Shown in pieces: positions 1,001-31,167 of a stretch of DNA of 33,393 nucleotides. The stretch's first letter is position 1, and each line of letters begins with the position of its first letter. The stretch lies in the IMG/VR virus record IMGVR_UViG_3300019458_000072, positions 1 to 33,393 of that record; one strand, 5' to 3'. The DNA is from a virus. Under the pieces are notes generated by a model. The model did no database searches and was not told where the DNA came from. It saw only the letters and a program-made list of their open reading frames with translations. Both the position numbers and the translations under genes were made by a program.

Positions 1001-1072
1001 TTTATGCGATCTTGATCGATAGAGTTCTCTTCAGAGCGCACGAGCGATTACCTACCTAACGCCCGATTGCGG

Positions 1073-1095
1073 GTTGCTCACGGATCGCGAGCAAC
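1073..1095 (+). repeat. Degenerate copy of the family promoter core with a 7-bp dyad
   Basis: The upstream half of the dispersed promoter family (GCGGGTTGCTCACGG) is present, but the expected -10 at 1096-1101 reads TCGCAT instead of TACACT. The segment forms a perfect inverted repeat, GTTGCTC at 1073-1079 and GAGCAAC at 1089-1095, with a 9-nt loop. It lies in the 140-nt gap before the gene at 1141. It may be a decayed promoter or an operator. Confidence 0.45.
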
Positions 1096-1140
1096 TCGCA
1101 TCAAGACGCCACGAGTTTATCTCGAAGCGGAGGTTCTTTC

Positions 1141-1619: not shown

Positions 1620-1647
1620 TTGTTCGCGAATTGCAGTCGATTACACT
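1620..1647 (+). promoter_or_regulatory. Family promoter (TTGTTC, 16 nt, TACACT)
   Basis: TTGTTC at 1620-1625, a 16-nt spacer, then TACACT at 1642-1647. The same layout and spacer wording recur at 27390-27417 (minus), 30662-30689 and 31044-31071. A perfect 8-bp inverted repeat, GTTCGCGA 1622-1629 and TCGCGAAC 1652-1659, brackets the promoter from -35 to about +1 and looks like an operator. Transcription would start near 1654 and run through the two hairpin repeats into the Pro/Arg gene. Confidence 0.6.
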
Positions 1648-1673
1648 GGCGTCGCGAACGGCCGCATTCTGAC

Positions 1674-1702
1674 GTCACCCCGCACGGGGTGTGGATTGAA
1701 AC
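1674..1702 (+). repeat. CRISPR-repeat-like hairpin, copy 1
   Basis: A 29-nt element beginning GTCACCCC and ending GTGTGGATTGAAAC. CACCCC and GGGGTG form a 6-bp stem around a GCAC loop. Length, 5' GTC, central G/C hairpin and 3' ATTGAAAC match the general form of type I-C CRISPR repeats, whose last 8 or so nt become the crRNA 5' handle. No spacer of normal length follows. An (AAAC)x5 run (1699-1718) grows out of the repeat end. Confidence 0.7.
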
Positions 1703-1751
1703 AAACAAACAAACAAACTGACGTGTTGCGGATTGCTCACGGGTTGCAGTC

Positions 1752-1782
1752 GTCGCCCCCGCGCGGGGGTGTGGATTGAAAC
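1752..1782 (+). repeat. CRISPR-repeat-like hairpin, copy 2
   Basis: A 31-nt element beginning GTCGCCCCC and ending GTGTGGATTGAAAC. The stem is one G/C pair longer than in copy 1, and the A-U pair of copy 1 is a G-U pair here, so pairing is kept despite base changes. It is preceded by a promoter core lacking its -10 (TTGCTC 1733-1738), as if the whole unit was duplicated and then lost the region around TACACT. The 49 nt between the two copies are this remnant plus the AAAC run, not a conventional spacer. Both copies are followed by AAACTGACGT. Confidence 0.7.
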
Positions 1783-1807
1783 AAACTGACGTAGGCATCT
1801 CAGCGCC

Positions 1808-9235: not shown

Positions 9236-9264
9236 GTTCCTCATACGTAGATGTGGATTGAAAC
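9236..9264 (+). repeat. CRISPR-repeat-like element, copy 3 (hairpin degenerate)
   Basis: A 29-nt element starting GTTCCTC and ending ATGTGGATTGAAAC, the same length as copy 1. The last 13 nt are identical to copies 1 and 2, but the central stem has decayed to a weak ATACGTA-type dyad. It ends exactly at the TTG start of the next gene. No family promoter core precedes it; the upstream 14 nt ATTCCACTCTGCAA recur in other gaps. Confidence 0.55.
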
Positions 9265-10743
9265 TTGAGAACTCTGGCTTCTGAGATACTTGCCGCTGCT
9301 GATGCGATGCACCAAAAGGGGCGTTGGGCGCATTTGTTTGATATTGTGGTGGATGCCTCCACGACTCTCTACCTTTCGGATTACCCTATCTCGCTTACCT
9401 ATTCGAATCAAACATACACGCCTTACCCGATCTTTATGGGTGAAATCGCACAAACGGTGAAGCCGGAAATGAAGACCCTTCAGATCCAGGTGGCAAATAT
9501 CGATAGAACCATCGCGACTTATCTTGAAGCAGGGAAGGTTCTCGGAAAGAACGTAACCATTACCTGGATCTTCGTGCGTGAGTTGGATGACACTGTGGTT
9601 CAGGCTTTTGGAGAAGTTTACCAGGTTCTCGGTGCCGAGTTATCTGATGATGATGCAACATGGACTTTCGAGGTAGGAAAATTCAACCTCTTCAGGATCC
9701 AGCTTCCAAGGAATCGTTGGATCGATCTTCGCTGTGAGTGGGTCTATAAGCACGCTGGTACTTGTGATTACGGTCGTGATGATTTCGAGGCACTTTCACA
9801 GATCGATTTGAAGCAGGGTGGGGATGGAAACAAGAAAGTTCAAGGATGGCGGGCTCTTAATATGGCACAGGTAGTGAAGGCGGACATCAACATCACTACA
9901 GCAAGCCATCTTACTCTCAGGATTCTTGATACTGTTGATGCTCGCTGGAGTTCATCGCAGAAAGATGGTCCCTTTGTCTATAGGAAGCTTCCTTTATCTG
10001 ATTCAGCAAATGTTTCCGGCGACTTTGATCTGGAAGTGAAATGTGCTGGCAATCCGAATGAACCCGGTGAAGCAGAAGGAATTCTCATCACAACGGATTC
10101 AAGTTCACCTACAAACTGGCTCTATTTGTGTCGGAAGTATTTGCCATTCGCTCAAGCTCCGTGGGTTCTTGCGATGGTGCCGACTAAAAGAAGATCCCGG
10201 CGTCTGTGGAGAACACGCGAAGTTTTCAGCATACAGCCGATGGTGATGCGTCGTCGTCAACGACGGGTTGAGTCTTCGATGTATTCTGCTCATCGCCAGT
10301 CTCTTCTTCTCGCCCCGAAAGAAGATCTTCATGTTGTTGTTTTTTCCAATGCCTCAAATATCGAGACACAAATTGCGGCAGTTCGATCTTCTAATTTCTA
10401 CTTGCGAATTACTAAGATAGGAACGAATTATCGTTTCTACCATCGGGCAAACGAATCAGACGGTTGGAGTGACCTCGTGACGATTGCAAGACCTGAGCTG
10501 AGTGGAGTGGATCTCAGAATTGGTTTCGCTGCTGAGACAGATACGGCACCTCGGGCAAGTGATCTTGTTGCGCGAGCGGATTATTTCCGAATGACTTCTG
10601 GTGGGTATCTCACTTGTGATCGAACGATTGCTGCCTGCAAGATACGTGAGAACTTCAGACGCATCGGTGCTGCACCTGGGATCATTCACGGGCCTCTGAT
10701 TTTTTTCTGGCTTCTATTCATGTTTCTTGGTTTTGTCCAATGA
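9265..10743 (+). CDS. gpL-like minor tail protein with inserted domain
   Basis: A 492-residue protein from TTG 9265. The N-terminal half (YSNQTYTPYPIFMGEI, then a strand with KTLQIQVANID) resembles lambda gpL and DUF2163-like hub proteins. Cysteines are few and paired as in gpL: C157 (RCEW), C167 (TCDY), C451 (TCDR) and C458 (ACK), which could bind the Fe-S cluster known for lambda gpL. Between the second and third lies about 280 residues with a jelly-roll or LamG-like look (GDFDLEVKCAG, FYLRITKIGTNYRFYHR, GVDLRIGFAAETD). The C-terminus is strongly hydrophobic (LIFFWLLFMFLGF). The start has no Shine-Dalgarno, only the repeat end. The stop overlaps the next start. Confidence 0.75.
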   Translation: MRTLASEILAAADAMHQKGRWAHLFDIVVDASTTLYLSDYPISLTYSNQTYTPYPIFMGEIAQTVKPEMKTLQIQVANIDRTIATYLEAGKVLGKNVTITWIFVRELDDTVVQAFGEVYQVLGAELSDDDATWTFEVGKFNLFRIQLPRNRWIDLRCEWVYKHAGTCDYGRDDFEALSQIDLKQGGDGNKKVQGWRALNMAQVVKADINITTASHLTLRILDTVDARWSSSQKDGPFVYRKLPLSDSANVSGDFDLEVKCAGNPNEPGEAEGILITTDSSSPTNWLYLCRKYLPFAQAPWVLAMVPTKRRSRRLWRTREVFSIQPMVMRRRQRRVESSMYSAHRQSLLLAPKEDLHVVVFSNASNIETQIAAVRSSNFYLRITKIGTNYRFYHRANESDGWSDLVTIARPELSGVDLRIGFAAETDTAPRASDLVARADYFRMTSGGYLTCDRTIAACKIRENFRRIGAAPGIIHGPLIFFWLLFMFLGFVQ

Positions 10744-26869: not shown

Positions 26870-27345
26870 TCTTCCAACCTCTCTGCCTGATCAGCATTCA
26901 CAAGCCCGTAGAATCCTCTCTTTCCATGGACTCTGAAGAGAAGCACTACGCATTCCTTGCCCTCCTTCTCCGCCTTGATCTGTGTGTCGCGAAAGAGCCG
27001 CTCAATGCGCCTTGATCCACGAACGATCACATCCCCCGCTCCAAGTAGTGTCGCCACTTTCTGCTCATAGATCGATGGAAAGTGAAAAGCCACCGCTTCA
27101 GGAAACGGTCGAAATGAGATGCCGGATCTGAGTAAGCCAAGAAGCGTAGTGCCGGCCCGAACCCAAAAGCGTGAGTAGCGCAGATCCCGCTTCACCTCCA
27201 CGTAGATCCAGTAGGGAGTATTCAATAAATCAGCGGAGGTTTGACCGGAATTTGATCCAGAAAGCGGCGTTCTCCGCGATCCTGGGAAGACGCTCGCTGC
27301 CTTTCGTTCGATCTGCTTGTAGTAGCACCAGTTCTTCTTGACCAC
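26782..27345 (-). CDS. PD-(D/E)XK nuclease, resolvase-like
   Basis: A 187-residue protein. The motif set is KQIERKAASVFPGSRRTPLSG (E13, with R and P before SG), then TSADLL (D39) and IYVEVKRD (E50, K52), the pattern of phage and archaeal Holliday-junction-resolvase-like PD-(D/E)XK nucleases. Placement next to recA fits DNA junction or end processing. I chose GTG 27345: a longer frame to 27417 would translate the promoter and hairpin repeat. This start has no Shine-Dalgarno; the repeat end GATCGAAAC lies 4 nt before it. Confidence 0.7.
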   Translation of the reverse strand: MVKKNWCYYKQIERKAASVFPGSRRTPLSGSNSGQTSADLLNTPYWIYVEVKRDLRYSRFWVRAGTTLLGLLRSGISFRPFPEAVAFHFPSIYEQKVATLLGAGDVIVRGSRRIERLFRDTQIKAEKEGKECVVLLFRVHGKRGFYGLVNADQAERLEEWIRKHGRKRWQAAKRPEVQSESNVFSSS

Positions 27346-27349
27346 GTTT

Positions 27350-27382
27350 GTTTCGATCCACACCCCGCGCGGGGCTTGGGTG
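27350..27382 (-). repeat. CRISPR-repeat-like hairpin, copy 4
   Basis: Read on the minus strand, the 33-nt element begins CACCCAAG and ends GTGTGGATCGAAAC. CCCCGCGCGGGG at 27363-27374 is a perfect palindrome, and outer CCAAG/TGTGG pairing extends the stem with one mismatch. Like copy 2 it is followed by a second AAAC. The promoter -10 ends at 27390, so transcription would start near 27383, meaning the mRNA 5' end is the hairpin itself. The nuclease GTG is 4 nt past the repeat. Confidence 0.65.
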
Positions 27383-27389
27383 GCGGGTA

Positions 27390-27417
27390 AGTGTAATCGA
27401 CCGCGACCCGCGAGCAA
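27390..27417 (-). promoter_or_regulatory. Family promoter (TTGCTC, 16 nt, TACACT)
   Basis: Minus-strand TTGCTC at 27412-27417, 16-nt spacer, TACACT at 27390-27395. GCGGGT and ACCCGC (27383-27388 and 27406-27411) form an inverted repeat over the -10. From 27430 to 27371 the sequence matches 31031-31090 at 50 of 60 positions by my hand alignment, from upstream GCGCTGCTGC through CACCCAAGCCCC. It would drive the nuclease-recA-SNF2-polymerase run independently of upstream genes. Confidence 0.6.
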
Positions 27418-28750: not shown

Positions 28751-28782
28751 GTTTCAATCTACGCCACTGCACGGAGGGCGAC
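28751..28782 (-). repeat. CRISPR-repeat-like element, copy 5 (32 nt)
   Basis: On the minus strand it begins GTCGCCC and ends GGCGTAGATTGAAAC, 32 nt in all, the usual type I-C length. Seven nt at the 5' end and 13 of 14 at the 3' end match the common type I-C form. The stem is only CGCC/GGCG with a degenerate interior. It occupies nearly the whole gap between the ParB-like stop (28785) and the next GTG start (28750). No promoter core precedes it. Confidence 0.55.
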
Positions 28783-30444: not shown

Positions 30445-30550
30445 GAGAACGAATGAAGACCAGAAGAATGAAGCTACTGGACCAGAAAATAACACTTGGA
30501 GCCCTTTCAGCTCCCGGTGGGCTTCTCCATTCTGGTCTTCATTCGTTCTC
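30445..30550. repeat. Long inverted repeat, 21-nt perfect arms
   Basis: GAGAACGAATGAAGACCAGAA at 30445-30465 is matched by its exact complement at 30530-30550, with a 64-nt centre. The RNA or a cruciform could form a 21-bp stem. No T run follows, so it is not an ordinary terminator. No target-site duplication or transposase is visible. Confidence 0.85.
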
Positions 30551-30661: not shown

Positions 30662-30689
30662 TTGCTGGCGGGTCGTGATCGATTACACT
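30662..30689 (+). promoter_or_regulatory. Family promoter (TTGCTG, 16 nt, TACACT)
   Basis: TTGCTG at 30662-30667, 16-nt spacer (GCGGGTCGTGATCGAT), TACACT at 30684-30689. The start would be near 30696. Instead of the CRISPR-like hairpin, the leader has CAACC/GGTTG at about 30701-30714. A 7-bp dyad, CGGGTTG 30658-30664 and CAACCCG 30701-30707, encloses the promoter. It points toward the ORF at 30901 and the HNH gene. Confidence 0.55.
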
Positions 30690-30900: not shown

Positions 30901-31167
30901 ATGTCATCATCTTTTTCATCTTCAAATGCATCTCCAGTCGTAAATGATCTGAAGACCAAGCTGGAGATGTTGTACTTTCGAATGTGCAGCGCCTATCGAA
31001 AGAACATAGAGCATTTGGCGGAGAAGCGATGCGCTGCTGCGGATTGTTCGCAGGTCGCAGTCGAGTGCACTGATCCGTCACCCAAGCCCCTTCGAGAGGA
31101 GGAGCAGCAAACCGTCGCAGCAGCGCAAACAGAATCAAGCTCGTCTTCATCGAAAGATGAAATATAA
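30901..31167 (+). CDS. Small serine-rich ORF (uncertain)
   Basis: An 88-residue frame preceded by a long purine-rich leader that includes AGGAA/GAAGAG-type sites. The N-terminal half (KTKLEMLYFRMCSAYRKNIEHLAE) could be a helix, but the C-terminal half runs through the promoter at 31044 and is low complexity (SSSSSSKDE). Overlap with the promoter and HNH start makes a genuine full-length gene doubtful. Confidence 0.3.
   Translation: MSSSFSSSNASPVVNDLKTKLEMLYFRMCSAYRKNIEHLAEKRCAAADCSQVAVECTDPSPKPLREEEQQTVAAAQTESSSSSSKDEI
31044..31071 (+). promoter_or_regulatory. Family promoter (TTGTTC, 16 nt, TGCACT)
   Basis: TTGTTC at 31044-31049, a 16-nt spacer, TGCACT at 31066-31071. It is the weakest -10 of the four but closely follows the 27390 copy across 60 nt. 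It lies 85 nt before the HNH gene ATG. Confidence 0.5.
31077..31112 (+). repeat. Degenerate CRISPR-repeat-like leader
   Basis: GTCACCCAAGCCCC matches the copy at 27350 on the 5' side; after that the sequence diverges, with CCCCTTCGAGAGG as a weak hairpin and GCAGCAAAC where the others have GATTGAAAC. It is the expected transcript start of the adjacent promoter. Probably a decayed copy. Confidence 0.35.

Follow-up and report, generated by a model that had tools for sequence, protein, structure and literature searches.

In type I-C CRISPR-Cas systems, the repeat hairpin is recognised by Cas5d at its base and its 3' tail. Repeat-like units are also found in viruses without cas genes, in the form of virus-borne mini-CRISPR arrays, and phages of the T4 type carry mobile regulatory cassettes composed of a promoter and a stem-loop (PeSL). 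Closest to the locus described here are the solitary repeat units (SRUs) of viruses, which have been proven experimentally to act as RNA anti-CRISPRs (Racrs), including the type I-C RacrIC1, and 83% of which match the subtype of their host (Camara-Wilpert et al., PMC10651486). To count as an SRU, a unit should match some known CRISPR repeat with identity and coverage of 90% or more and be intergenic and free of cas genes; such units are further expected directly behind a promoter, with expression as a small RNA. The published tool SRUFinder counts a unit as solitary when no second full match lies within 100 bp.

The viral record analysed here, whose whole length of 33,393 bases we refer to as the window, carries head-tail, tail and replication genes (Pfam, PHROGs). 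A sequence-only reading of this DNA had described two type I-C-like repeat units, and both are indeed present, with lengths of 29 and 31 nt (copies A and B; Table 1); a third strong copy, C, located on the minus strand, had been overlooked. All three are intergenic and oriented along the downstream gene, with A/B and C occupying the space from one stop codon to the start of the ORF that follows, and the GTG codon at 27345, which adjoins copy C and its AAAC, is the probable start of a gene. Judging from their sequence and placement, the set is best read as a multi-copy relative of SRUs and Racrs, in which type I-C repeat mimics would lie in mRNA leaders.

Table 1. Repeat-like units, copies of element X and associated motifs in the window.
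Feature	Positions	Strand	Properties
F, X-related hairpin without the conserved loop, 5' of the gene at 1141	1070-1098	+	z -3.08
X of copy A, conserved core	1620-1647	+	within strong hairpin 1612-1668, z -3.65
Direct repeat CTGACGT, flanking A and following B	1669-1675, 1718-1724, 1786-1792	+	
Copy A, hairpin and tail resembling a type I-C repeat, GTCACCCCGCACGGGGTGTGGATTGAAAC	1674-1702	+	29 nt; 51.8 bits, E 1e-11
Four further AAAC units 3' of copy A, in total (AAAC)5	1703-1718	+	
X of copy B, 5' half only	1733-1751	+	
Copy B, GTCGCCCCCGCGCGGGGGTGTGGATTGAAAC, followed by AAAC at 1783-1786	1752-1782	+	31 nt; 41.7 bits, E 4e-9
GTGGATTGAAAC, directly 5' of the ORF start at 9265	9253-9264	+	10.3 bits, E 0.8; not significant alone
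Copy C, CCCCGCGCGGGGTGTGGATCGAAAC	27350-27374 (27346-27374 with AAAC)	-	41.9 bits
X of copy C	27390-27417	-	
Possible degenerate repeat, GTCGCCCTCCGTGCAGTGGCGTAGATTGAAAC, adjoining a GTG codon	28751-28782	-	7.6 bits, E 4; not significant alone
D, X without repeat	30662-30689	+	z -2.29
E, X together with the remains of a decayed repeat, where an ORF has its 3' end	31044-31071	+	

We trained a covariance model (R1) on 16 units, A, B and C included, and in the window it gives three strong matches and no more, at these same copies; since they are training sequences, their scores are partly a product of construction, and what they establish is that no other good copy exists in the window, not an independent proof of these three. 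Of the two weak candidates in Table 1, the one in front of the ORF at 9265 forms a poor hairpin, and its sequence, GTGGATTGAAAC, occurs 12 times in the window at up to 2 mismatches, compared with 3.5 occurrences expected.

Independent support for the units comes instead from a permissive gapped alignment to 41 array repeats, the majority of which we obtained by scanning bacterial genomes with a pattern. Copy A matches an array repeat of Clostridiales PH28 at 29 of 32 positions (91%) and copy B a Prevotellaceae array repeat at 30 of 32 (94%), so that the comparison which the sequence-only reading had proposed places both with genuine type I-C array repeats, while the best match of copy C among the collected repeats is 24/28 (86%). 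With type I-C direct repeats (of the Rfam CRISPR-DR9 type, and as found in the arrays of Clostridiales PH28, Prevotellaceae and Nitratidesulfovibrio) the copies share the arrangement GTCRC-stem-loop-stem-GYGTGGATTGAAAC; they differ in being 29-31 rather than about 32 nt long, in the AAAC that follows, and in having no array, spacers or recognised cas genes. At the gathering threshold, Rfam gave no match in the window. None of the scanned window proteins has a convincing match to a Cas family (Pfam, PADLOC, PHROGs, NCBIfam), in agreement with the earlier statement that no cas gene is present; the PADLOC matches are to generic helicase, primase-zinc-finger, polymerase and RecA proteins. The neighbourhood of the copies likewise contains no recognised anti-CRISPR gene.

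Like the described SRUs and Racrs (PMC10651486), the copies are intergenic, have no recognised cas genes beside them and keep their hairpin, and A and B reach an identity of 90% or more to type I-C repeats. Unlike them, they come as three copies in one phage, share an upstream element and an (AAAC)n extension, are positioned as putative leaders in front of genes and lack a promoter consensus and a recognised acr gene. Copies A and B pass the identity threshold but lie 49 nt apart and would be clustered by SRUFinder, whereas C is solitary but falls below the identity cut-off, and we therefore file the set as SRU-like and not as formal SRUs. The earlier Racr-like reading finds partial support, repeat mimicry outside an array being the reading we prefer, and is weakened by the clustering of A and B, the lower identity of C and the want of a recognisable promoter.

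A repeat search revealed that each of A, B and C is preceded by another conserved element, X (TTGYTCRCRRRTYGCRGTCGATTACACT, with the core TTGYTCRCRRRTYGCRGTCGAKTRCACT), which had escaped the sequence-only reading. Allowing up to 3 mismatches, there are four occurrences of X in the window and none in shuffled sequences, and all six of its copies lie on the same strand as the downstream gene; one of them, E, shares 84% identity with copy C along 61 nt. In other viruses the full degenerate X was not found, and the three viral loci that matched a 17-mer did so by mere chance. A search for close relatives of the phage gave a single, distant one, recognised by its DNA polymerase (45% identity), in which no unit was found. 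BLASTN searches with the cassette gave nothing useful against phages and mainly weak matches against plasmids, the best of them to plasmids rich in repeats, Nitratidesulfovibrio plasmids among them.

Element X also bears on whether A and B could form a mini-CRISPR array with a spacer against a competing virus, as their spacing of 49 nt, close enough for clustering by SRUFinder, might suggest. The two units are unequal in length, and the interval between them has no foreign spacer of 33-36 nt and nothing spacer-like, which sets the locus apart from virus-borne mini-arrays; it consists of (AAAC)4 and half of X, and X recurs at C, D and E. We consequently rejected this explanation, which is hardly credible. 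The earlier assertion that there is no array holds in that the interval is not a spacer, and needs to be qualified in that the spacing of A and B falls within the clustering distance of SRUFinder.

Both A and B fold into the expected hairpin. The sequence-only reading had seen pairing kept by base changes between them; these two copies differ by an A-U in place of a G-U pair and by one extra C-G pair, with no double compensatory change, and it is across a larger set that the claim finds support. As stem lengths differ, counts of base pairs on an ungapped alignment are uninformative, and we re-paired the arms of 48 AAAC-bearing units (45 viral and the three of the window) instead: stems of at least 7 bp are formed by 50% of the units with their own arms and by 15% with re-paired arms. 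Viral AAAC units are highly variable in their stem sequence, and their own arms still pair better than re-paired ones.

These properties are compatible with a Racr-like decoy, a function we consider plausible and favour, while holding it somewhat short of probable. In such a scenario, a cassette of X followed by a hairpin with the 3' tail GTGTGGATYGAAAC(AAAC)n would stand at the starts of several transcription units of the phage, and the hairpin, once transcribed, would imitate a type I-C CRISPR repeat in a host that presumably has a type I-C system. Cas5d would bind the hairpin base and the 3' tail and probably cut the hairpin, leaving a message whose 5' end resembles a crRNA handle followed by harmless phage sequence. 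Cas5d, Cas7 and Cas8c would thereby be drawn into useless complexes, and the phage DNA corresponding to this "guide", being flanked by the repeat, should itself escape targeting. We favour a decoy because of the leader position, because the hairpin base and 3' tail that are conserved are the parts recognised by Cas5d, and because viral SRUs are proven to act in this way (PMC10651486). Three features keep our confidence from being higher, namely the AAAC extension, which repeat mimicry does not explain, the chromosomal copies in genomes without detectable Cas5d, described below, and the failure to recognise a promoter. Should the units indeed be decoys, the phage would carry RNA anti-CRISPR hairpins in several of its own transcript leaders, and its counter-defence would rise with gene expression.

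The sequence-only reading had described the units as promoter-driven, for which our scans give no support: a search for consensus sigma-70 promoters between positions 900 and 3100 gave no match (1.3 expected), nor is there such a consensus at copy C; what precedes the units is element X, which loosely resembles TTGCTC-N16-TACACT and agrees with the consensus at 7 of 12 positions. Immediately upstream of viral units in general, promoters show no more than a weak enrichment. X could nevertheless be a phage promoter or operator, with the hairpin and its A/C-rich tail stabilising or regulating the mRNA, so that the cassette would be a regulatory part of the 5' untranslated leader and the likeness to CRISPR repeats would reflect its origin and not its function. 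We regard this as rather unlikely. It is in accord with the strand of the X copies and with the way in which A/B and C take up the stop-to-start intervals, and it would give the locus a parallel in PeSL, which are likewise dispersed intergenic cassettes with a conserved upstream element, a stem-loop and then a gene; here, however, the stem-loop and tail are those of a CRISPR repeat and the upstream element is not a recognisable promoter. A leader function would leave the long conserved tail GTGGATYGAAAC and the identity to type I-C repeats in need of another reason, and X, besides having no recognisable sigma-70 consensus, was not detected in any other virus scanned. The earlier note had itself named a leader that merely resembles a repeat as its alternative: the leader position agrees with it, and the degree of identity of A and B to type I-C repeats speaks against it.

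Directly 3' of each of the copies A, B and C stands an AAAC that CRISPR repeats do not have, and this extension is shared with units in other viruses. Scanning viral contigs for the tail followed by AAAC yielded 56 stretches, a number that includes coding coincidences and near-duplicates and that reduces to 45 unique solitary units; the tail followed by ACAA yielded 3. In a scan that left the sequence 3' of the repeat unspecified, AAAC follows 10 of 70 unique solitary viral units (about 14%, among the matches listed), compared with an expectation of 0.4-1% (binomial P < 1e-8, among the same matches). In several unrelated viruses (at five loci), the terminal AAAC is reiterated at least three times, as it is at positions 1699-1718 of the window. 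The layout seen in the window is not unique to it, since two or three copies are dispersed in each of several other viruses, and in one of them two of three copies share their upstream sequence.

The placement of viral units resembles that in the window. Outside long ORFs lie 34 of the 45 AAAC units (25% of random positions) and, among the matches listed, 36 of 60 other viral units (17% of random positions); starts preceded by a ribosome-binding site (RBS) follow 14 of the 45 (5% of random positions) and, again among the matches listed, 14 of the 60 (4%). In favour of the decoy we count that such solitary type I-C-like units are numerous in viruses, that they avoid long ORFs to this degree and that some viruses have dispersed copies. 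The roughly sixfold enrichment before RBS-preceded starts, together with the diversity of the genes downstream, argues for a function in leaders. Should that hold, a large share of the viral repeat units now in catalogues may have no anti-CRISPR function, and the AAAC extension would offer a simple sequence mark by which to sort decoy from leader units.

Chromosomes provide a further argument of this kind. Hairpin, tail and AAAC are dispersed in the genomes of a member of the Thiotrichales (G013) and a member of the Burkholderiales (G008), where copies lie directly 5' of RBSs or start codons; the genes behind them, as named from reading their translations, appear to be tsf, ddl, rbfA and other housekeeping genes. 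A Cas5d model found no match in either genome and matched in 4 of 16 genomes with such hairpins, all figures being from draft assemblies that may be incomplete. Among 151 genomes of the family of G008, dispersed AAAC units occur in G008 alone, the other three matches being chance AAAC inside real arrays. At the chromosomal loci, Rfam gives no more than CRISPR-DR9 matches to the hairpin that stay below threshold. The occurrence of hairpin and AAAC before housekeeping genes in genomes without detectable Cas5d makes a role as leader or mobile element a serious rival to the decoy. In Clostridiales PH28, which has long type I-C arrays, single repeats are also found in two other intergenic regions, one being identical to the array repeat and located after a ribosomal protein gene, the other followed by AAAC and located before a membrane-protein gene.

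A repeated betaproteobacterial element of about 110 bp, found in Giesbergeria (four loci), Azonexus and one further locus, has this hairpin and tail at its end and is preceded at its start by TTCAT or TTTAT. This, and the abundance of TnpB in the genomes concerned, could indicate that the units are the right (omega-RNA) ends of IS200/IS605-type transposons, with a CRISPR likeness that is only apparent. Several TnpB right ends in the same genomes terminate in GGAGAGGATGTCAA and have no such hairpin, and the window encodes no TnpB domain; we therefore consider this origin unsupported and very improbable.

Finally, the copies might be relics, that is, CRISPR repeats that were inserted into the phage with duplication of the flanks, were later duplicated locally, and have no present function. 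The CTGACGT repeats around A and after B, the degenerate copies (E and those at 28751 and 9253) and the duplicated flanks found at the repeat 3' end of other viral units are in line with such a history; the intact hairpins of A, B and C and their almost exactly conserved tail, as in many viral units, are not, and we think it improbable that the units are without function. Of 134 solitary viral units, 8 (about 6%) have at least 10 nt from the repeat 3' end duplicated just upstream, compared with an expectation of 1 from shifted anchors, and a second version of the test gave 8% against 0-0.3%. Copy B is one of the eight, but there the duplicate reflects that A and B arose by duplication on the spot. 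The duplication is 34 nt long in L340 and 15 nt in L321, where it encloses the repeat alone; five further viral units are flanked in this way, with duplications ranging over all these units from 10 to 34 nt, and a chromosomal case of 16 nt is found in Granulicella rosea.

The fixed 3' end, the variable 5' end and the growth of (AAAC)n would resemble repeats inserted as units, with the (AAAC)n tail sometimes grown from the repeat's own 3' end. It is conceivable, if quite improbable, that single repeats insert independently into intergenic sites of phages and bacteria with target-site duplications of about 8-34 nt, in a manner similar to RNA-primed retroposition, and that the copies in the window are such insertions reused as leader cassettes. 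The flanking duplications would then give an initial hint of the way in which solitary repeats enter phage genomes.

Two other repetitive features were observed in the window. Positions 1808-2761 hold an Arg/Pro-rich ORF of 317 amino acids without a family match, whose 3' end is a tandem duplication of 30 bp (2684-2743), and positions 30445-30550 hold a 30-nt inverted repeat whose arms are 87% complementary and lie 46 nt apart.
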